Source of the DNA: Saprospiraceae bacterium
GTDB lineage: Bacteria > Bacteroidota > Bacteroidia > Bacteroidales > JAIPBB01
Length of the DNA stretch: 13,300 nt
Direction of reading: 5' to 3'
NCBI GenBank assembly: GCA_021739805.1
Contig: JAIPBB010000132.1
Coordinates: forward strand, 1 to 13,300
Each line of letters begins with the position of its first letter. Within the stretch, counting starts at the first letter, position 1. Positions 1 through 13,300 of the stretch are shown here, one piece after another. Under the pieces are notes generated by a model. That model did not search any database. It was not told the origin of the DNA and was given only the letters and a program-made list of their open reading frames with translations. The position numbers and the translations under genes were made by a program.

Positions 1-3000
1 GAACTGATTTGTTTCAAACACATTAGCAGTATTTTCAACTATTAAACCACTTCGCATTAGAATATTTATTTTTTTAATTAATTGGTCTTTTTCTAAAAGT
101 GTTATTCTTAGCAATCTTTCTATCGAAAGTCGCTTATCAAGAACAAATTGTACCAGAAGATTTAGCCATTCTGTTTCCAAATTCTCCAGGGCTTCAATAT
201 CCGGGATTTTAGGATAATTCATTTCTAGGACTTTTCCATTAAAATCTGTGATATTCGCAATCCAGCTTTGCAATGCCACGCCAACATTTCCCTTTGAATA
301 ATTAAAATATTTATTGAAAAGCTTCGCATAATTCCAGCTAAGATATAAATCTTCGTGTCGTTTTCTTATCTTAAATTTCAAACCACTTGATTTATGACGG
401 AAGTAAATGATTTCCTTAATTTGCTCGGCATTAAATGGTGCACACTCGATTATATTTATAAAACTGCTTTCAAGTTTTTTAATCTTATTCATCAAGCTAA
501 AACTATGAGTATTAACAGTCACAACAAATAAACATTTATTACTGTATTTTTCTATTAAATCGAGAATGACATTTAGAACATCAAATCCCTTCTCTGACTT
601 TTCCCACCATAATTCAATATTCTCAAAAACCACAATGCTATTTTCAGGAATATTATTAAAGATTGTTTTATAATCGCCTTTTAATTCAAATGCGTTTTGC
701 AGCGTATTTTTAAAATCAGTTTTAAGTATTGAACCTGAATTTGGTGGATTGATAAAATAAGAAGTTGAATTTTCGTATAATTTATATGCGATATACTGTG
801 AAAAAAAAGTTTTCCCTGAATTTCTATCACCATGAATCAATATTCCACCATAATATCCGGATTTATATCTTTTTATTGAATTTCTTGCCTGGTTTAGTTC
901 TCTTTCTCTTCCAAACCAGAATTCATTTAAGTAATGCTGCTTACGTAAGAATAACTGCTTATAATAAAATGGAATCTTATTAATTACCTCAGCTTTGAAT
1001 GAGATTTTATCTACAATATTTAATAAATCATTAACCTTTGCTTGTTTGTTTGTTTCAATTTGCTTTAATCGTTTTGCAAGAAGAACTCCCCTACTTTGGC
1101 GATACCAAACCTGGCTTAAAAGATTTCCAAGCTTTTTGTTTGATGTTTTTAGAGTTTTCCTGGTTTTTGCAAATAATTTCTTTCCTTCGTGAGTTTTTAT
1201 ATATTGCTTAAGATCCTTTGCCGAATTAACAAATGAGTAATATGAAAGCTTATCATTTATTGCATGCAATCGTTCGTTTAACTGCAACTCTGATTGCTCT
1301 TTAATTTCTTTGGATTCTTCAAGATTGGATTTCAGTTTATTTATTTGCTCATCAACAAAGTCAATAATATTAGTATGGAAACTTTCATCTGCGTGGAATT
1401 CACCGTCCATATTTTGATTTATACTGAAAGTCACCAATCTTATGGTATCTAAAATGCTATTATTAACCGCTTCAAGCTTTTCAGGCAGTTCGTCTGTGAT
1501 TTTCTGTAATGGCTCAATAAACTCCATCTGAACAAGATAATCAAGGAAACGACTTACTGAAATATGTGCTGACTCAATCTTAGAATATTGTTGCTTATTA
1601 AAATTATTATAGGATTCATCCGACATTAAATCAATAGTATCGGGAAAAAACATCGTGGCAGACTTAATCTTTTTAAGAGTGGTATCAATTATATTTTTAC
1701 ATGTGATTTTTACAATCTGGATGTTCTCATTATTATAGATATAATTAAAATCAGCCTTTTCATTTTTCTTAAGTTTCGTTTGATGCTTTTTTAAGCTTTT
1801 AATAATTTTGTATTGTTCACTTATAATAACATCATCAATTTTAGTGGATAGCTCGTATAAAATATCGATATAAATTGTTCTTAATCTTGAGCTAAACGCT
1901 AAAAGTACGAATTCAAGATATGATGCATTTAAAATTAGTTCTTGATTTCTTTTCCATTTATCAGGAATTTCATTTAATTTTAAAATTAATTTTTTAGTTG
2001 CTTTAGCTGATTCACCATCATCTTCAGGAATAAAACTATTTGGGTTAATCTGATTTAAATCATTACTTATCGATTGAATTATTCTCGAAAGTTTATTCAG
2101 AAATAGCATTTTCAAAGACTTATAAGAAGCTTTATTTAAATCTTCAACGTCTTTAATCATTAATGAAATCTTCTGCATTTCAGTATTGACAATCTCATCA
2201 AGGTTTTCAGCAGCAGCACTATTTGCGATTAAACGAAAGCTCTCATCAATCTTTCTTGTTAGTTTTTGTATTTCAACAATAAACTGTGCGCTTATCAAAC
2301 CCCATTTGTCAAATGTTTTATAAAGTGCAGCATAGCCTTTTAATGGCAAATAAGATGATACGAGTTTTTTATACTGAATTTTGTATTTAACAGCTTTGCC
2401 GGTAGTTTTCAACCTAAGCCTTTTATTAAATTTAAACCATTTAAGAGAGCTTGAATCTGACTTTTCTGGTACTAAATCTTCTTTTTGAAGCTTATTGATA
2501 ATTGATTTTGGCAGCTTACTAAGTTTGTCATTAATAGAGTCTAGAAATTGTTTAAGAGTTCCATCAAGTATTTCCTTTTGATTAATTAAGTTTTGAATCG
2601 TAACTTCCTCAATCAACTTATTAGAACTTATAAATAATTTGTTCTGAACTTTGTTGACTATTTTTTTTCTTTCAAACTGGTTTTCTTCATTAACCCGAGT
2701 GGTTAATGTTGAAAAACTTTGTTGAAACAATTCCTTAAAAGATTTGATAAAGTTTTCATGATGGATAAACAGCTTTGAAATATGGTCTTGGTCAAGTTCA
2801 TCAACTATTCCATATAAATCATCCTGCAAGCTTTTTAGCTGATTTGCTAAAATATTCTTATCAGGGAATTTAATTTCCGGAATATCAATAGTTTCATTAA
2901 TTACTAAATCAATGCCTCTTCCTTTTTCGAGTTTAATTTCTTTGGATTCGGGTCGAACTCCAATTTTTAAGTCTTTAAAATAAGTTGAAGCTTTAATTAA

Positions 3001-5151
3001 AACAACAGTTCCAATATCTTTACAAAGGGCATTGGTTTCTTTAACAAATTCTCTTTCAGTACCAATTTCAATTTCAGGAACTCCTATAAAAATTAAATCT
3101 GAATTAACAGATTCGACCCTGATTATTTGATAGAATGTTTTACGTTCAATTTGGTTATTGATAATTTTAACATCAGCCTTTATCCTTAAATTATCTAAAG
3201 CTTGAATTGCATCATTTAGAATAACATCCTTTTCATCATTATTAGGATTTACAATCATCAGCCTAACCTTTGCTTCACGCCAATCATCTGAAAGCCATAA
3301 GAATTTAGCTAATGTGAGTGCAAGATTTCCATTATTTCCTGCTCCTCTCCACCAAATATCAATTAGTTTTCTTTGTCCAAACCCATACCTTTTATCATAG
3401 TCCATCATTAAAATATTCAGGTCAAGATTTGAAAGAGTCTGAATTGTTTGAGCAAAACGTTCAGAATCTTCACTTCTTCGTCCCCATCCTAAGAATACTG
3501 TATTTGGTTCAATTCCTGAAAACCCATAAGTTTGAGCAATTGCCTCAATTCCGTCATAAATATTATTGCATGTTTGCCTTCTTGTAAAAATCCCTTTATA
3601 CTGTTCACTTTCATCAGAGCTAAATGCTTGTTTGTGTTTTGGAAAGAATATTTTCTCATCCTTGTTTTCAATAAGATCGAAATTTGATAGAAACCCATGT
3701 TTTCCAACTAAATTTTTTCCGAAATTCATTAGGTGAGAGCGTGTTTCATTTCCTCCGCTAAATAAAATAATATTAGGTCGCCAGTTTCTTTCTTCAATTT
3801 CTTTCTTATCCATTCTATGAAGAGATGTTCTAACTATTGATGAAAAGACACTTTGCCACACATCTCCAAAATCAAGTTGCAATTCTCTTTTCCTAAGTAT
3901 GAAATAAATAAGCCACATTATTACAAAAGCTCCAATCATAGCAAGTGGATTGAGTTGAAACATAATCCCAAAACAAGCTATAAAACCAACAATCCCAATC
4001 CATCTGGAAATTTTAAAAGTTGGCCTAAAATCAGAACTAGCCCAACTTTCAAGTGCATAAGCAAGATTAATAAAACCATAAGCGGCAATATAAAACATGG
4101 AAACTACTTCGGCTATTGAATCAAGTTTCCCAATTAAAATTCCGATTTCTGCAATAACAAAAGTCAATATTAAAGCATTTCGCGGTTCATTACTTTCACC
4201 ATGACCTTTCCCTAAGAATTTTGGTGCAATTTTATCATTAGAAATAGCCTGGAGTATTCTAGGTCCACCTAATATTCCACCTAATGCAGAAGATAGTGTG
4301 GCTCCCCAAATACCTGCAATAACAAGAGGAGAAAACCAGGCAATTTTCATTAAGAAATTTTTATCATTAATTAATAAATCTCTATCGACAAAAACTGCAA
4401 AAGCAATAGCAAGACTTAGGTAAATAACCAGTCCGATTACAATTGCACTCATAGTACCCACAGGAATTGATTTTTTTGGGTCTTTCAAATCTCCTGACAT
4501 AGCAACACCGGCTGTAAAGCCCGTTACAGCAGGAAAAAATATAGCGAAAATAACAATCAGGGGTATTTCATTTGCACTTTGTGACATTGCAATTTCTATA
4601 GGTTTAGTATCTCCTCCTGTAAAAAATCCAACAAAAATTGAAATTAACGAAAGTGCTATTGCACCAAGTATGAAGAATTGTGTTTTAAGTGCAAATGAAG
4701 TACTTATGAATGCAATAATTACCAATGCAATTATTACAATTGTACCGACAATCCTAATGCTATTGATTGAAGGCTCCATGCCAAGAAATGTGCTGATAGC
4801 ATTAATTCCCAGAAAGTTTTCACAGAAACCAACTATATAAAGTGAAATGCTCAGAGCAGTTCCTATAAACAATGAAATCCCAATGGAACCACCCATTGGC
4901 AGTCCCAAACTTCGCGAAAGCATATAGTAAATACCGCCTGTTTTTATCTTTTTATCAGTAGCGATTGATGAAATACTTAAACCTGTTGAGATTGAAATAA
5001 CATGAGCTAATAAAATTATCCCAATAGTGGCAATTAAACCTGCTTCACCAACAACCCATCCTAAACGCATATACATTATCACGCCAAGGATAGTTAGAAT
5101 AGAGGGAGTGAAAACACCTGCAAAAGCACCAAATTTTTTAGCTTGTGACAT
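1..5151 (-). CDS. Giant fusion: CCC/SLC12-like cotransporter + helical region + AAA+/STAND-type ATPase + winged helix (3' end outside window)
   Basis: The reading frame is open for 1717 codons from ATG at 5151 to the window edge with no stop. Residues 1-420 are a multi-spanning permease of the cation-chloride cotransporter type: GVFTPSILTILGV and MRLGWVVGEAG near the N terminus, FFPAVTGFTAGVAMSGD from 205, SALGGILGGPRIL at 288-300. Residues 457 to about 745 resemble the SLC12 soluble C-terminal domain, with IDIWWRGAGNNGNLALTLA from 597. Residues about 750-1400 are charged and mostly helical, without a family I recognise. FGRERE (1413-1418) opens a P-loop ATPase: Walker A GDRNSGKT 1441-1448, Walker B-like VVFEN 1507-1511, sensor-1-like N1547, lid arginine around R1587. 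A winged-helix-like segment (1653-1717) runs off the edge. The start is supported because conserved TM1 follows at once. Known CCC proteins move Na/K with Cl in the membrane; ATPase control of transport is inference. Ion specificity is unknown. Confidence 0.88.
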   Translation of the reverse strand, partial: MSQAKKFGAFAGVFTPSILTILGVIMYMRLGWVVGEAGLIATIGIILLAHVISISTGLSISSIATDKKIKTGGIYYMLSRSLGLPMGGSIGISLFIGTALSISLYIVGFCENFLGINAISTFLGMEPSINSIRIVGTIVIIALVIIAFISTSFALKTQFFILGAIALSLISIFVGFFTGGDTKPIEIAMSQSANEIPLIVIFAIFFPAVTGFTAGVAMSGDLKDPKKSIPVGTMSAIVIGLVIYLSLAIAFAVFVDRDLLINDKNFLMKIAWFSPLVIAGIWGATLSSALGGILGGPRILQAISNDKIAPKFLGKGHGESNEPRNALILTFVIAEIGILIGKLDSIAEVVSMFYIAAYGFINLAYALESWASSDFRPTFKISRWIGIVGFIACFGIMFQLNPLAMIGAFVIMWLIYFILRKRELQLDFGDVWQSVFSSIVRTSLHRMDKKEIEERNWRPNIILFSGGNETRSHLMNFGKNLVGKHGFLSNFDLIENKDEKIFFPKHKQAFSSDESEQYKGIFTRRQTCNNIYDGIEAIAQTYGFSGIEPNTVFLGWGRRSEDSERFAQTIQTLSNLDLNILMMDYDKRYGFGQRKLIDIWWRGAGNNGNLALTLAKFLWLSDDWREAKVRLMIVNPNNDEKDVILNDAIQALDNLRIKADVKIINNQIERKTFYQIIRVESVNSDLIFIGVPEIEIGTEREFVKETNALCKDIGTVVLIKASTYFKDLKIGVRPESKEIKLEKGRGIDLVINETIDIPEIKFPDKNILANQLKSLQDDLYGIVDELDQDHISKLFIHHENFIKSFKELFQQSFSTLTTRVNEENQFERKKIVNKVQNKLFISSNKLIEEVTIQNLINQKEILDGTLKQFLDSINDKLSKLPKSIINKLQKEDLVPEKSDSSSLKWFKFNKRLRLKTTGKAVKYKIQYKKLVSSYLPLKGYAALYKTFDKWGLISAQFIVEIQKLTRKIDESFRLIANSAAAENLDEIVNTEMQKISLMIKDVEDLNKASYKSLKMLFLNKLSRIIQSISNDLNQINPNSFIPEDDGESAKATKKLILKLNEIPDKWKRNQELILNASYLEFVLLAFSSRLRTIYIDILYELSTKIDDVIISEQYKIIKSLKKHQTKLKKNEKADFNYIYNNENIQIVKITCKNIIDTTLKKIKSATMFFPDTIDLMSDESYNNFNKQQYSKIESAHISVSRFLDYLVQMEFIEPLQKITDELPEKLEAVNNSILDTIRLVTFSINQNMDGEFHADESFHTNIIDFVDEQINKLKSNLEESKEIKEQSELQLNERLHAINDKLSYYSFVNSAKDLKQYIKTHEGKKLFAKTRKTLKTSNKKLGNLLSQVWYRQSRGVLLAKRLKQIETNKQAKVNDLLNIVDKISFKAEVINKIPFYYKQLFLRKQHYLNEFWFGRERELNQARNSIKRYKSGYYGGILIHGDRNSGKTFFSQYIAYKLYENSTSYFINPPNSGSILKTDFKNTLQNAFELKGDYKTIFNNIPENSIVVFENIELWWEKSEKGFDVLNVILDLIEKYSNKCLFVVTVNTHSFSLMNKIKKLESSFINIIECAPFNAEQIKEIIYFRHKSSGLKFKIRKRHEDLYLSWNYAKLFNKYFNYSKGNVGVALQSWIANITDFNGKVLEMNYPKIPDIEALENLETEWLNLLVQFVLDKRLSIERLLRITLLEKDQLIKKINILMRSGLIVENTANVFETNQF

Positions 5152-5259: not shown

Positions 5260-5399
5260 CTACTTCCAACTTCGATCTTAGTACTTCAAACTTTTTGCTT
5301 TTTACTTTTTACTTTTGCCTTTTTACTTTTGCCTTTTTACTTCGGTCTTCCGACTTCCGACTTTTTCCTTGCCTTTTGCCTTCCAACTTCTATCTTCCC
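5260..5399. repeat. Low-complexity pyrimidine tract with short direct repeats
   Basis: The plus strand is almost purely pyrimidine with recurring ACTTC, CTTCC and CTTTTTACTTTTGC-like words. A 14-base unit TTTTTACTTTTGCC occurs exactly at 5306-5319 and 5320-5333, followed by a half copy. The minus strand, which is the transcribed sense for both flanking genes, therefore carries a long purine-rich run. The tract overlaps the last codons of the exported protein (5390-5399), whose C-terminal KKEGR may derive from it. The rest of the 238-base gap holds no gene. It is probably a degenerate intergenic repeat. Confidence 0.7.
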
Positions 5400-6508
5400 T
5401 CTTTTTTATAATTTGGCATTCGGGCAACATTAAATCCAAATGATAATCCAACAACAGTTCCTTCTTTACGTGGTGAAACATATAAGTTTAAGGGGATGTT
5501 TAAATAGCCTGACCTAATTGTTTTTCCAACGGCTATAATTAATCCTGTTGAAAGTTTGGTAACGCCTCTATAATCAATTTCTTCTTCAATCTGATAAGCT
5601 GCACCTTCGGGCATTTGAGATTCCAAATTCCATTCTCCGTTTTCATCATAATATCCATTGGCTTTTTTTATTCCCCTAAAAACAGGTCCAATGCCAATTT
5701 CCCATCCTGTTTTATTAAATCTGAATCCATTTAAAAAAGTTAAAGATGGAGCAAAAGTTCCTGATTCCAATCCATTTACAGCTCCAACAAATTCAATTAA
5801 AGCTTGAAAATCACCTGAACTCAAATATTGAACTTCATATTGATATCCAAACATTGATGTCACCGGATACATATTATATCCACCAATTTCTTTTCTGGCT
5901 TCCATTCTTGTTGCAGTTGAGCCAAATGTATATGCCGCTCCCATTCTGGGTCCATTAAGCTTAACTGTTGTTTTCGGACTAGTAATTGGTCTATCATAAT
6001 TTACAAGTAAATCAACTAAAATTTGTTCATTTGGAATTCCTAATAAGTTATTAATAGAAATTGAAATCATAGTTTGAAGTTCAACTTGTTGATTCAAATA
6101 TTCCATTACATCTGTTTTTTCAATTTTTCCGGCTTTAACATCTATAAGTCTTAATATCAAAATAATTTTATCACCAAACTTCTCAGCACTTCCTGATAAC
6201 ATTTTATCAGTTTTAAGAATATTGCCAACTTTAATAAGCTGGGTTTTTCCAAAACAATTACTTACGTCAACTCCATTCTTTTTTATAATGTCGGCAACAT
6301 CATATTTATCAAGAACTTCATAAACATTAGTTTTTTCAAGTTCAAGACGAACCATATTACATACAGCTATGTTGTCCATGTCCAAATCTTTGGTATCCAT
6401 ACTGATAATAGCGATGCTTGGTTTGTTTTGAGCATAAATGTTTAAACTCAATAACATCATTACAACATAAATGCTAATTTGCTTTTTTGAAATCATTTGT
6501 GTTTTCAT
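5390..6508 (-). CDS. Exported protein with CsgG/TolB-N-like N-terminal domain and beta-rich C-terminal domain
   Basis: The protein has 372 residues. Residues 1-26 form a signal peptide (hydrophobic core ISIYVVMMLLSL, likely cleavage after NIYAQ) without a lipobox cysteine, so it should be periplasmic or outer-membrane associated rather than a lipoprotein. Residues 30-160 resemble the CsgG / TolB-N-like fold: a SIAIISMD strand, LELEKTNVYEVLDKYDVADI, a CF...IGN-type element, then DKMLSGSAEKFGDKIILILR and LIDVKAGKI. In that superfamily such domains sit in periplasmic or outer-membrane assemblies. Residues about 185-372 are rich in alternating strands (GPRMGAAYTFGS, GWEIGIGPVFRG, GTVVGLSFGFNVAR) and may form a small barrel or sandwich. 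The chain lacks the usual terminal aromatic residue of outer-membrane barrels. It lies 238 bases upstream of the transporter on the same strand, so co-transcription is possible. The exact role is unknown. Confidence 0.8.
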   Translation of the reverse strand: MKTQMISKKQISIYVVMMLLSLNIYAQNKPSIAIISMDTKDLDMDNIAVCNMVRLELEKTNVYEVLDKYDVADIIKKNGVDVSNCFGKTQLIKVGNILKTDKMLSGSAEKFGDKIILILRLIDVKAGKIEKTDVMEYLNQQVELQTMISISINNLLGIPNEQILVDLLVNYDRPITSPKTTVKLNGPRMGAAYTFGSTATRMEARKEIGGYNMYPVTSMFGYQYEVQYLSSGDFQALIEFVGAVNGLESGTFAPSLTFLNGFRFNKTGWEIGIGPVFRGIKKANGYYDENGEWNLESQMPEGAAYQIEEEIDYRGVTKLSTGLIIAVGKTIRSGYLNIPLNLYVSPRKEGTVVGLSFGFNVARMPNYKKEGR

Positions 6509-8057: not shown

Positions 8058-9968
8058 ATGGATAAGAAAGTGAATCTACCTTTGCGTAGCTTGAAAGAGT
8101 GTTATGACCTAACCCGACACCCCGAACGAATCAGAAGTTCAGATGTAATTGAAGGAGTATTTGAAGACATAGAATATTTTGAAAGTCCTGACCCATCACT
8201 TATTGTTGCCAGAGGAAAAATCAACGGCACTTTATGCATGATTTTAGGGCAAGAAAAAAGAAGAAGTGGAAAAGAAAGCCTTGCAACAGGAATGATGAAT
8301 TCCAAAGGTTATGGTTTTACACTTGATATGCTTGATAAAGCTGAGAAAAACACTTTACCTGTTATTTCATTTATCGACACATTTGGCGGCGACACATCTA
8401 TTGAATCGGAATTAGGAGGACAGTCATTTCTAATTTCTGATTGCATCTCAAGATATTGTGAAATTAAAACTCCAACTATTTCAATTGTTATTGGTGAAGG
8501 TGGAAGCGGTGGTGCTTTAGGTTTACAAATTGCTGACAAAGCCTATATGTTAGAAAATTCACTTTACTCAGTTATCGCACCTGAAAGTTGTAGTAGAATT
8601 ATTTTCCAAAAACGATTAGCTGAAGGTGAAAATCTTGAAGACACCATAAGTGATTCCTTAGAAGTACTTCAACCCGGAGCCAACCACATCCAATTGATTG
8701 GAATGATTGACGAAATATTACCAGAACCTGTTGACGGTGCCCACACAAATTATGATTTCACTATAAACATTATTAAAAAAACTTTAATAAAGGATTTGAC
8801 CAAATGGACAGTAGCCAAAAAAGACGGCACAAAAATAGTCCGGTCTAAAATCATTGACAAACTGGTTGAAGAGAGAAGAGATAAGGTTTTGCATTATGGT
8901 GAATTTCTTGACCTTTTAGGAAAAATCACTAAAAGAGTTACCAAAAGAAGTATTCCCGATAATGTTAAAATTATTGATATTGAAAGAGAAGACTTCTACA
9001 CACAACGAATGATTAAAGCTCATCTCGAATCTGAAGGTATTGATGAAACCCAACTCTATAAATGCGAAAAAGAGTGGGATAAAGACAAAGGAAAATTTAG
9101 AGTTAAAGGAGGTTGTGGTTTTGTGCCTTTAAAAGATTATGTTGCTAACTTTTATGCTTGTCCAAAATGCGGAAAAGGAGAATACTTAAACATTGACGAA
9201 CAAATTGAGAAAATTTGCGACAAAAATACTTTCACCGAAACTGAGTGCAATCTTACAATAAATGATTTGTCTAGCAGCGAAAGGTACAATTTAGGCAGAT
9301 ACAAAGCTTTGCTTGAAAAAATGCAGAAAAAAAGCTTTTCTAAAGAAGGATTAGTGACAGGAACAGCAAAAATTCATGGTAAAGACGTTGTGTTGGTGAT
9401 ATCAGATATTCATTTCATTGGTGGATCATTTGGTGCTGCATTTGGTGAAAAGTTTAAGCGAGCTGTTGACCTTGCGATTAAGAAAAAATTCCCAATGATT
9501 TCTTTGTGTTCATCGGGTGGAGCAAGAATGAATGAAGGTCCGATGGCACTTGCCCAAATGGCAAAAATGAATATGTCAATATTGGATTTGAAAAAAGCCG
9601 GAATATTATATCTTTCAGTTATTGCAGAACCAACAACCGGTGGAGCCTATGCCAGTTATGCTAGCCAGGGTGATGTTATGATTGGCGAAAAAGGCAGTTT
9701 AGTTGAATTTGCCGGACCAAGAGTTGTTTTAGGAGCCGGATTTGAAGTTGATCGCGAAGTTGTTTGTACAGATAATTTATATGAAACTAAAAAAATCCAG
9801 CATCTTGTTGACAGAAAAGATTTAAAAAATATTTTATCCTACTATGTTGATATTTTCTATGGTTTAAAATATCCAAATAAAAGACAAAACTCCGGTAGAA
9901 TCAGAGATTTCAGAAAGCTAAGTGCATTGATTTTAGCACTTGCAAATTTGAATATGCCGAGTATATAA
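8058..9968 (+). CDS. Single-chain acetyl-CoA carboxylase carboxyltransferase, alpha-like then beta-like domain
   Basis: The protein has 636 residues. Residues 1-290 match the AccA-type (alpha) half: DLTRHPERIRSSDVIEG near 17-33, FIDTFGGDTSIESELGGQ at 105-122, and the glycine-rich oxyanion segment GEGGSGGAL at 146-154 followed by YSVIAPES. Residues 400-610 match the AccD-type (beta) half: GGSFGAAFGEKF from 455, SSGGARMNEG at 485-494, EPTTGGAYAS from 524, FAGPRVV from 551. Between them, C336, C353, C368 and C371 (CPKC) look like a zinc ribbon whose first CxxC pair is split. The enzyme half transfers the carboxyl from carboxybiotin to an acyl-CoA, normally acetyl-CoA to malonyl-CoA for fatty-acid synthesis. 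Single-chain propionyl-CoA-type enzymes are ordered beta then alpha; this one is reversed. In the alpha half, PGAYPG is replaced by FGGDTS. No biotin carboxylase or carrier gene is adjacent. Substrate could be another acyl-CoA. Confidence 0.9.
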   Translation: MDKKVNLPLRSLKECYDLTRHPERIRSSDVIEGVFEDIEYFESPDPSLIVARGKINGTLCMILGQEKRRSGKESLATGMMNSKGYGFTLDMLDKAEKNTLPVISFIDTFGGDTSIESELGGQSFLISDCISRYCEIKTPTISIVIGEGGSGGALGLQIADKAYMLENSLYSVIAPESCSRIIFQKRLAEGENLEDTISDSLEVLQPGANHIQLIGMIDEILPEPVDGAHTNYDFTINIIKKTLIKDLTKWTVAKKDGTKIVRSKIIDKLVEERRDKVLHYGEFLDLLGKITKRVTKRSIPDNVKIIDIEREDFYTQRMIKAHLESEGIDETQLYKCEKEWDKDKGKFRVKGGCGFVPLKDYVANFYACPKCGKGEYLNIDEQIEKICDKNTFTETECNLTINDLSSSERYNLGRYKALLEKMQKKSFSKEGLVTGTAKIHGKDVVLVISDIHFIGGSFGAAFGEKFKRAVDLAIKKKFPMISLCSSGGARMNEGPMALAQMAKMNMSILDLKKAGILYLSVIAEPTTGGAYASYASQGDVMIGEKGSLVEFAGPRVVLGAGFEVDREVVCTDNLYETKKIQHLVDRKDLKNILSYYVDIFYGLKYPNKRQNSGRIRDFRKLSALILALANLNMPSI

Positions 9969-10641: not shown

Positions 10642-12690
10642 ATGAAATATCTTCTGTATGTTTTTATATTAATAATCCTAGATGTTTCATTAGTGCAAAG
10701 TCAGGAGAGTAACTATATTTATTTTTCTGACATAAAAAATCCTGAAAAAGCGACCGAGCTAACAATTGATTGCTATAGCGATGATTTTAATGAATTTGTA
10801 ACAAACATAAAGGATTTTAAGAATCTTGACGCGATTCATATTAAAAATTATGACAACAAATATGTTCCTGAAGAGATTAAAAAATTAAATATTTCTAAAC
10901 TTATAATCTCATATAGTCCTGAAATTGACTATTCATTATTATTTAAGCTTCTATCTTCAACAAATTCGCTTGAAATTCTTGTGCTTGAGAATAATGAATT
11001 AATTGAAGTTCCTAAAGAAATAAGCTTGATAAAGTCTTTAAAAAGCCTGGAAATTAATTATAATGAAGATTTGGATACGGAGAAATTAATCGAATCAATC
11101 AAAGAATTAGACTCACTAAAAGAACTAAATTTATCTGTTAATTCAATTTATGATCTACCAAAAAATATTGGAGCATTAAAACAACTCGAATCATTGAATA
11201 TTAGTTCTAATAATCTTAATGATCTGCCAAAAGAAATAAGGAATCTTAAGAATTTGGATACTTTAAGAATGGAAGAAAATATTTTCACAGATCAAATAAA
11301 ATCACTTAATCGTTTAAATAATGTTGATTTAAAATTTATTTCTATTGATAATGGTATTTCTAGTGAAAACAGGGAAATACTTCAAAAATTATTTCCAAAT
11401 GCAACGATTGAAGAAAGTAAACTATTATTTAATGGGAAATTTATCGAAAGCGATACTCTCATAGAAAACTTTGATACTACAGAAAGTGAAAGCATAAAGT
11501 ATGGAATGATTAAAGTTGAAGGAGTTCAATTCAAAGCCCTTTCAAGTGCTTATTATCAATATGCCAGGTTATTTAACAACCGTAGATTTGACTACACATT
11601 TGACACTCTAATGTTTAGCGAAAGATATTTTGACACAACATATGTTCGGACATCAAAAGTTCAAAGTAATGTTTTCTACAATGAGTTTATTATTTATAAA
11701 AGGTTTTGGTTTCTAAAAAGAAAAATAGAATTCGATATAATACCTGAGAGAAGACCAAAATGGTTACTCAAAACTGAGAATGCATGGTTTTTCAGAATAT
11801 TTCCTGAGTTAAGACCATATAATGGAATGCGTTGGGTTTACAAAGGAAATCTTTCAAAAAAAGAATTTAAACAAAAATATATTAAAGATAAAGAATGGAC
11901 TGACGTTAGGATTTATTTTAATGAAGAAAATACTGATTTCACACTTGAACTTAAATCAAGATCCGGCTTCGAAAGTTTTAATACTTACCCCCAAATTAAT
12001 AAAACAAAATATAATAAAAAATCCAGATTAGAAGACTCCCAAAAGAAGTTCATTCAATTGAACATCAAGTATTCAAAAACTTTAGATTCTAAGAAAAGGA
12101 GATTTCACACTGTATTAGCAAGAAACAAAAGATATTATGAAAAAGCCAGAGAAAAAGCTATTGAAAGAACCTGGAGAGATTTCCAAAATCTTTATATGTG
12201 TGATGCCGAAAAGAAAATGTCGAAAGAAGAATGGTTGAAATATTATGATGATATTATTAAAAATGAAAGAAAAGCTCTTTTTTCATCAACAACCACTTGC
12301 GATATAATGGCACGCAGCCTGGATTTAGAAAAATACCTCCTTATTGGAATTAATCAATTATTGATTAGTAACTATCGAACCTACAATGTCTCATTCAATA
12401 ATGAACTAAACGAAAGAGTGCCTGTTAAAAGTTTTATTGTTGCAAATCTAAACGACAGGTCATATTATGAACTTAATGGTAACTTAGGAATCGACTTACA
12501 ATCAATATATTTATTAAACTCAAACATTGTGATTATTGCTGAGTTAAGAAATGGAGATATTGGATATATTACAAAAGAAAATTTCGAAAAGCTTAATTTA
12601 CAAGCAGGGGTTGAAAATAGCATAAATTTAACAATCATAGAAAAAAGCCTTTGTACGATTGGTCAGCTTTACGAATTATTAGGTCTATAA
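10642..12690 (+). CDS. Exported leucine-rich-repeat protein with large unrecognised C-terminal region
   Basis: The protein has 682 residues. Residues 1-20 are a signal peptide (hydrophobic core LLYVFILIILDVSL, probable cleavage after VQS) with no lipobox. Residues about 60-230 carry leucine-rich repeats of the LxxLxLxxNxLxxLPxxI type: LEILVLENNELIEVPKEI from 110, LKELNLSVNSIYDLPKNI from 159, LESLNISSNNLNDLPKEI from 182, with degenerate units on both sides. LRR domains normally bind proteins. Residues 260-682 match no family I recognise: a strand-rich part with many aromatics, a basic helical segment (ARNKRYYEKAREKAIERTW), then a mixed alpha/beta tail without terminal barrel or sorting signature. 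I see no catalytic motif. The gene has the same type of promoter as the sigma factor gene downstream, so it may belong to that regulon. Cell-envelope interaction is inferred from export plus LRRs only. Confidence 0.8.
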   Translation: MKYLLYVFILIILDVSLVQSQESNYIYFSDIKNPEKATELTIDCYSDDFNEFVTNIKDFKNLDAIHIKNYDNKYVPEEIKKLNISKLIISYSPEIDYSLLFKLLSSTNSLEILVLENNELIEVPKEISLIKSLKSLEINYNEDLDTEKLIESIKELDSLKELNLSVNSIYDLPKNIGALKQLESLNISSNNLNDLPKEIRNLKNLDTLRMEENIFTDQIKSLNRLNNVDLKFISIDNGISSENREILQKLFPNATIEESKLLFNGKFIESDTLIENFDTTESESIKYGMIKVEGVQFKALSSAYYQYARLFNNRRFDYTFDTLMFSERYFDTTYVRTSKVQSNVFYNEFIIYKRFWFLKRKIEFDIIPERRPKWLLKTENAWFFRIFPELRPYNGMRWVYKGNLSKKEFKQKYIKDKEWTDVRIYFNEENTDFTLELKSRSGFESFNTYPQINKTKYNKKSRLEDSQKKFIQLNIKYSKTLDSKKRRFHTVLARNKRYYEKAREKAIERTWRDFQNLYMCDAEKKMSKEEWLKYYDDIIKNERKALFSSTTTCDIMARSLDLEKYLLIGINQLLISNYRTYNVSFNNELNERVPVKSFIVANLNDRSYYELNGNLGIDLQSIYLLNSNIVIIAELRNGDIGYITKENFEKLNLQAGVENSINLTIIEKSLCTIGQLYELLGL

Positions 12691-12846: not shown

Positions 12847-13300
12847 ATGAATTATTCAACAAACATATTTAACGAAACGCAAGCTGACATAAAAAGCGAA
12901 TCAGTACTAATTAATGAAGCAAAAAAGGACATAAATGCTTTTATTCCAATATATGATAAATACTATATAAAAATTTTCAGATTTGTTTACAATAGAGTTG
13001 AATCAGAAAGCATAGCAGCAGACATAACTTCACAAGTTTTCTACAAAGCTATTAAAGCTCTTAAAAATTATGAAAATCGTGGGCTACCTTATTCTTCTTA
13101 TCTATATCGAATTGCCAGAAATGAGATTAATATGGAAGCACGCCAAAATAAGATAGAACTAATTTCCAGTGCAAAAATAACAGATATAGAAAACATCGCT
13201 TATGAAATTGACAGTTCAAATGAAGAACTGTTTGCACAACTTATTATACTGCTTGAATCTTTAAATGATAATGATCTTGAATTAATCGAAATCAAATATT
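12847..13300 (+). CDS. ECF-type RNA polymerase sigma-70 family factor (3' end outside window)
   Basis: The first 151 codons are visible. Residues about 30-100 show sigma region 2: FIPIYDKYYIKIFRFVYNRV, then AADITSQVFYKAIKALKNY (core-binding and -10 recognition helices), then LPYSSYLYRIARNEINMEAR. After a short linker, LLESLNDNDLELIEIKY begins region 4, the -35-recognising HTH, which is cut by the window edge. Region order and size indicate a group 4 (ECF-like) factor of roughly 180-200 residues. It would bind core RNA polymerase and direct it to GTAAC-type promoters such as those at 12797 and 10503. An anti-sigma or membrane sensor gene may follow outside the window; none is visible upstream unless the exported LRR protein plays some such part. 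The ATG at 12847 follows the promoter directly. Confidence 0.85.
   Translation, partial: MNYSTNIFNETQADIKSESVLINEAKKDINAFIPIYDKYYIKIFRFVYNRVESESIAADITSQVFYKAIKALKNYENRGLPYSSYLYRIARNEINMEARQNKIELISSAKITDIENIAYEIDSSNEELFAQLIILLESLNDNDLELIEIKY

Follow-up and report, generated by a model that had tools for sequence, protein, structure and literature searches.

The stretch of DNA analyzed here (the window) comprises 13,300 nt of contig JAIPBB010000132.1 from a Saprospiraceae bacterium (GCA_021739805.1). Its minus strand carries a frame of 1717 open codons (5151..1), which starts with ATG and has an in-frame stop just upstream; a sequence-only reading of the window had already described this frame as unbroken, and we confirmed it. 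The window end cuts the frame, leaving the stop codon and about 15 final residues outside, and P0002, the closest homolog among the matches listed, runs 15 residues past the cut end. The chain contains, in this order, a whole cation-chloride cotransporter (CCC) with an NKCC-like Na+ site, a helical domain of about 640 residues, and an AAA+/winged-helix domain (Table 1; residues are numbered in the fusion protein).

The minus strand also carries, upstream of the fusion, a gene for a 372-aa protein (5390-6508) that matched nothing in Pfam or NCBIfam. The plus strand contains a 636-aa frame (8058-9968) with an AccA-like half (16-256) and an AccD-like half (353-598), placing the alpha and beta parts of acetyl-CoA carboxylase carboxyltransferase in one chain. 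It also contains a 682-aa leucine-rich-repeat (LRR) protein (10642-12690), for which NCBIfam plant-pathogen LRR effector matches were far under cutoff and covered the LRR region only, and an ECF-type sigma factor (12847-13299, Pfam/NCBIfam), cut at the window end.

Table 1. Features of the fusion protein and their positions in the window.
Feature	Residues	Position	Strand	Basis
CCC transmembrane domain	1-440	3832..5151	-	PF00324 7.7e-55, TIGR00930 4.2e-126, SLC12 PDB chains
Thr20, TM1; Asn in aligned NKCC1 and KCC chains	20	5092..5094	-	Alignments, 120 homologs
Tyr105, TM3	105	4837..4839	-	Tyr in 114/120 homologs
ATLSS, TM8	284-288	4288..4302	-	NKCC1 letters identical, KCC different
CCC cytosolic C-terminal domain	450-745	2917..3804	-	KCC chains align to residue 711
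Long-helical middle domain (MID), two alike-built halves	750-1385	997..2904	-	AlphaFold2 model
AAA+ domain	1391-1652	196..981	-	Model and fold comparison
Walker A GDRNSGKT	1441-1448	808..831	-	Alignment of homologs
Degenerate Walker B SIVVFENIELWWE	1505-1517	601..639	-	Alignment of homologs
RHKSSG motif, common to diverged modules	1585-1590	382..399	-	Alignment
Winged-helix domain, cut at window end	1653-1717	1..195	-	Model secondary structure, ORC/Cdc6 matches

Profile and PDB sequence matches show residues 1-745 to be a complete cation-chloride cotransporter. The 32 best sequences of a PDB search were all SLC12, with SLC12A5 at the top (8.6e-86), and the SLC12 chains cover residues 3-711 in two aligned stretches. 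The K-Cl cotransporter subfamily profile TIGR00930 covers residues 3-671 with 422.4 bits, under its curated cutoff of 953.4. The sequence-only reading, which had placed CCC segments at residues 1-300 and 597-615, was thus right about the family but gave it too small an extent.

The TM8 stretch ATLSSAL matches the letters of NKCC1 and departs from the KCC stretch, and its ATLSS part is what we take to be the NKCC-type Na+ site. Conservation of A284 and S287 in 120 of 120 homologs, and of S288 in 118 (window included), counts for NKCC-like transport. Tyr105 is presumably the K+-site tyrosine. Position 20 in TM1 is Thr in 108, Ser in 9 and a gap in 3 of the 120 (window included), which counts against the NKCC-like transport assumed in the two-gene proposal set out below. 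Na+-coupled, NKCC-like transport is predicted for the CCC part from its sequence.

The middle domain was modeled by AlphaFold2 with a pLDDT of 85.1 and a pTM of 0.76, and its sequence conservation is low. Pfam gave a weak AAA_16 match for the ATPase end (7.2e-05; 23.8 bits, cutoff 32.6), and the predicted structure of this end combines an AAA+ fold and a winged helix, matching folds of the ORC/Cdc6, RuvB and NSF type. The P-loop domain and winged helix that had been read after residue 1400 are therefore borne out by the model. As to the earlier "AAA+/STAND-type" label, the fold matches are of the AAA+ types just named, and among STAND-type profiles AAA_16 in the window and nSTAND in two diverged copies gave matches under the cutoff. 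The Walker A motif lies where it had been read, preceded by FGRERE, which starts at residue 1413. Its Lys is present in 114 of 120 homologs and in all 77 CCC-type sequences; the next residue is Thr or Ser in all 120 of the former and in 75 of the latter. By its predicted fold and its Walker A, the domain belongs to the P-loop AAA+ proteins. The Walker B glutamate position, by which a catalytically active AAA+ ATPase would be recognized, holds Asn in the window, and Glu appears there in just 5 of 120 homologs. As regards an arginine finger and a sensor 2 arginine, GNxG apparently stands, by sequence alignment, at the place where ORC and RuvB have GDxR. In copies from Myxococcota, a regular expression suggested loss of Walker A; this was rejected, since the alignment keeps the Lys in 17 of 20, and in 10 of 20 the Lys is followed by Arg.

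The CCC and AAA+ parts in one chain are a genuine fusion. A chance frame or chimera was rejected, as a protein search found at least 1353 homologous proteins at E ≤ 1e-3, a lower bound because 7992 candidates were scored. Among the matches listed, the 119 other homologs cover 92-100% of the query at 43-77% identity.

To survey the occurrence of the fusion, a GTDB scan was run with the AAA+ end, giving 172 relatives, of which 80 were kept. All four parts lie in one frame in 65 of the 80 kept loci, spread over several phyla, so the co-occurrence of both domains in one frame, for which the earlier reading had called for a search, recurs across genomes. In the remaining 15, the locus is cut by the contig start (11), the CCC parts are in an overlapping separate frame (2), or the module is intact and stands alone (2). 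By title, the kept loci include Bacteroidales, other Bacteroidota and Chlorobiota, and further Desulfobacteraceae, other deltaproteobacteria, Myxococcota groups, Gemmatimonadetes, Neomarinimicrobiota and Delongbacteria. Desulfoluna limicola (L061) and Paraliomyxa miuraensis are isolates among them. Five Flavobacteriales genomes (G001-G005) contain a module close to the CCC type and no CCC match, which counts against the two-gene proposal. In two Flavobacteriales loci (L054 and L067), the module comes after a gene that we take to be miaA-like.

The new result is the MscS partner of the fusion. A small MscS-like gene lies directly downstream in 50 of 62 fusion loci, counted from stop-to-stop ORFs where 700 or more bases can be seen after the fusion; a greedy ORF caller had given 47 of 63, dropping L058, L062 and L072 and mis-calling some GC-rich loci. 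The spacing mostly ranges from a 10-base overlap to a 56-base gap. The small MscS has about 245 codons, and three TM segments are predicted for it; in 9 of 9 small partners tested, the PF00924 beta-domain scored over the curated cutoff. The 52 small MscS proteins were related to the ordinary MscS beside stand-alone modules (described below) with an HHalign probability of 98.6 over 226 columns. As our MscS profiles were built from genes of these same loci, they match the loci by construction, and independent support comes from Pfam and from leave-one-out profile scoring, in which all 52 small proteins scored 1.2e-47 or better.

Twelve of the 62 fusions have no adjoining small MscS, which counts against the two-gene proposal; 11 of these genomes contain a copy elsewhere, which counts for it. 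In 2 of the 11 (L007 and L010), the distant match contains an in-frame stop, a further point against the two-gene proposal, and the genome of L035 gave no strong small-MscS match. In-frame stops, one each, also occur in the genome-wide matches of G405, G407 and G488 (small MscS) and of G485 (CCC-AAA+). The window shows no MscS gene, and the downstream side of the fusion lies outside it. L001 and L009 (51-52% identical), its nearest relatives whose flanks can be seen, have the small MscS elsewhere in the genome, so a next-door copy is not to be assumed here. Both observations count against the two-gene proposal.

The small partner also differs from ordinary MscS in its TM3a. We take a Gly/Ala-rich pore helix TM3a to be the canonical MscS hallmark, and the small partner does not show it: Gly plus Ala over 28 columns is 0.18 in small versus 0.27 in ordinary partners, and aromatics per 16 columns number 3.6 in the 52 small versus 0.9 in 50 ordinary partners. 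Because TM3a is aromatic-rich, channel function is not assured. This composition could fit a partner-controlled channel, or a changed or lost channel function.

To investigate co-occurrence, the modules and small MscS genes were counted across whole genomes; the p-values below serve as a guide only, because some alignment rows were taken from sampled genomes and related genomes are not independent. In the order of L002 (198 genomes), the small MscS is present in 32 of 34 genomes with a CCC-type AAA+ and in 0 of 164 without (p = 7e-35). Here, CCC-type AAA+ was called at ≥279 bits or from two partial matches at contig ends (G468 and G429, taken as CCC-type after their MscS neighbor was seen); when the partial matches were not counted, the numbers were 30 of 32 versus 2 of 166 (p = 8e-31). 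In Myxococcota (188 genomes; CCC-type AAA+ ≥219 bits), the small MscS is present in 7 of 8 genomes with a CCC-type AAA+ and in 0 of 180 without (p = 5e-12). The small-MscS limits in the two groups (≥98 and ≥103 bits, respectively) were chosen after the gaps were seen. The best score outside the 34 genomes was 61 bits, and in the eighth Myxococcota genome (G651) the adjacent match has 75 bits, under one outside match of 82.

Diverged modules without the CCC were also found. Among 395 Bacteroidota genomes searched, 93 had module matches, of which the stronger mostly fall in frames about 1000, 450 or 1500 codons long, and 60 of the listed places were taken for locus analysis. An MscS gene lies ≤400 bases away on the same strand in 51 of 53 loci with stand-alone modules, and beside the module in 6 of 6 loci where it is fused to a CPA2 antiporter and in the one with another membrane part; these counts rest on the greedy ORF caller, and the loci are not independent because many share gene order and one clade. 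As background, 6 of 1244 other ORFs in these loci score as MscS. Pfam confirmed seven ordinary MscS partners (5 of 5 of one tested set over the PF00924 cutoff), the CPA2 part, and TrkH K+ transporter genes adjoining in two loci. The CCC-type modules are homologous to the stand-alone modules over 878 columns (E = 5e-52) and to the CPA2 modules over 925 columns (2e-41).

Of 20 Myxococcota places, picked mainly for long frames and counted with the same greedy caller, 17 are CPA2-fused and 13 have MscS next; the 7 loci with no MscS downstream count against the two-gene proposal. One MscS partner (L187) is under the Pfam cutoff. Most CPA2-AAA+ genes (L099-L102, L157, L158, L179-L198) touch or overlap the gene upstream of them, which is about 410-510 codons long and encodes 7-12 TM segments. 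Of those scanned, the one in L180 passes PF00999, so the upstream gene may encode a second antiporter-like subunit. Two further arrangements were observed. In L103, TrkH and MscS flank a fusion of AAA+ to an 11-TM membrane part that has no name in Pfam, and a gene for an ammonium transporter follows downstream. In L197, an AAA+ module, an MscS and a 10-TM protein form an operon-like run with a CPA2-AAA+ chain that the locus end truncates.

Eight diverged modules (L105-L108, L123, L135, L139, L140) are short: most of the helical domain is missing, only about 300-430 residues remain around the AAA+ domain, and yet all eight adjoin MscS. Their persistence there argues against a passive scaffold, in which the helical domain and AAA+ fold would be a tether or spacer between membrane proteins and the nucleotide structural or absent. 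Such a role would suit the long helices, the degenerate Walker B and the Arg that replaces Ser/Thr after the Myxococcota Walker A Lys, but the P-loop Lys and the following Thr/Ser are otherwise kept as described above, and we consider the scaffold very improbable.

The AAA+ module and MscS form the constant unit, with the transporter as the variable part. This constancy supports the osmotic role suggested in the sequence-only reading, which the MscS pairing bears out, together with the diverged copies associated with CPA2 and, in two loci, TrkH; it also makes an ATPase serving the transporter alone less likely. In that alternative, the AAA+ domain would sense the cytosol and set CCC activity, and the MscS would be a functional neighbor in the same osmotic regulon, with no direct coupling. 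It accommodates the fusion of the module to two transporter families and the 12 fusions with no MscS next door, but is difficult to reconcile with the MscS genes adjoining modules that carry no fused transporter, with the co-occurrence with one MscS subfamily, or with the CCC-less Flavobacteriales, of which 4 of 5 genomes keep the module and a small MscS elsewhere (none was found in the genome of L067, a point against the two-gene proposal as well). We therefore regard it as quite unlikely.

An assembly or quality-control factor, aiding the folding, insertion or co-localization of the MscS heptamer and the attached transporter with no gating, is also unlikely. AAA+ folds often remodel proteins, the fold matches include NSF and RuvB, and the module can stand alone beside MscS, but the degenerate Walker B speaks against a strong remodeling motor and a permanent transporter fusion would be unusual for a chaperone.

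We propose instead, as a moderately probable explanation, that the fusion is the transporter half of a two-gene system for osmotic or ionic homeostasis. The proposal builds on the fusion itself, the NKCC-like Na+-site residues, the predicted AAA+ fold, the operon pairing and the co-occurrence with one MscS subfamily, as read from the sequences. The symporter would take up K+ and Cl- on the Na+ gradient, and the cytosolic arm (helical domain and AAA+/winged helix) would dock on the cognate MscS-type channel and control it, whether the channel gene adjoins the fusion or lies elsewhere; the loading of ions and their release would thereby be set against each other. Related operons contain a diverged arm, either on its own next to MscS or as part of a CPA2 antiporter chain. 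Because Walker B is degenerate, the nucleotide would serve as a slow or non-hydrolyzing switch; that it gates or assembles the transporter, as suggested in the sequence-only reading, is conjectural. More tentatively, and with rather less confidence, we suggest that some bacteria have a controller dedicated to cell volume: AAA+ arms (on the NKCC-like cotransporter, on CPA2, or free) would grip the cytosolic vestibule of the cognate MscS and set uptake and release reciprocally by nucleotide state or strain. Such a controller would share its logic, though not its ancestry, with the animal WNK-NKCC/KCC and volume-channel circuit.

Research usually treats secondary transporters and tension-gated channels as separate osmotic devices. 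If the proposal is true, one module is a common controller of transporter and channel, and membrane tension is not the sole control of some MscS-like channels, which also answer to a protein partner. The fusion also offers a bacterial setting for the study of NKCC-type transport and its control. Our search of the open-access literature, which leaves most subscription papers and all bioRxiv preprints outside, found no description of such a system.

Comparison of the fusion with SLC12 proteins (NKCC1, KCC, and the prokaryotic PDB entry 3g40) shows that it shares the whole transmembrane and cytosolic C-terminal domains and the Na+-site residues of NKCC1, but adds about 970 residues (helical and AAA+), has Thr for the TM1 Asn, and is accompanied by a cognate MscS gene. 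The small partner resembles MscS-type channels in its three predicted TM segments and PF00924 beta-domain, and differs in its length of about 245 residues, its aromatic-rich TM3a and its occurrence with the CCC-type AAA+. Unlike the AAA+ proteins ORC/Cdc6, RuvB and NSF, the module is membrane-tethered, rarely has the Walker B Glu and contains an RHxxSG motif. Regulated transporters include those with the RCK of Trk/Ktr/Kef, and NKCC/KCC under WNK-SPAK control; Pfam revealed no RCK or kinase family match in the fused chains scanned. As in these systems, ion transport is tied to a cytosolic control element, and CPA2 and TrkH genes occur in the related loci, but the element here is an AAA+ module that CCC chains have in common with CPA2 chains and that is paired with MscS.
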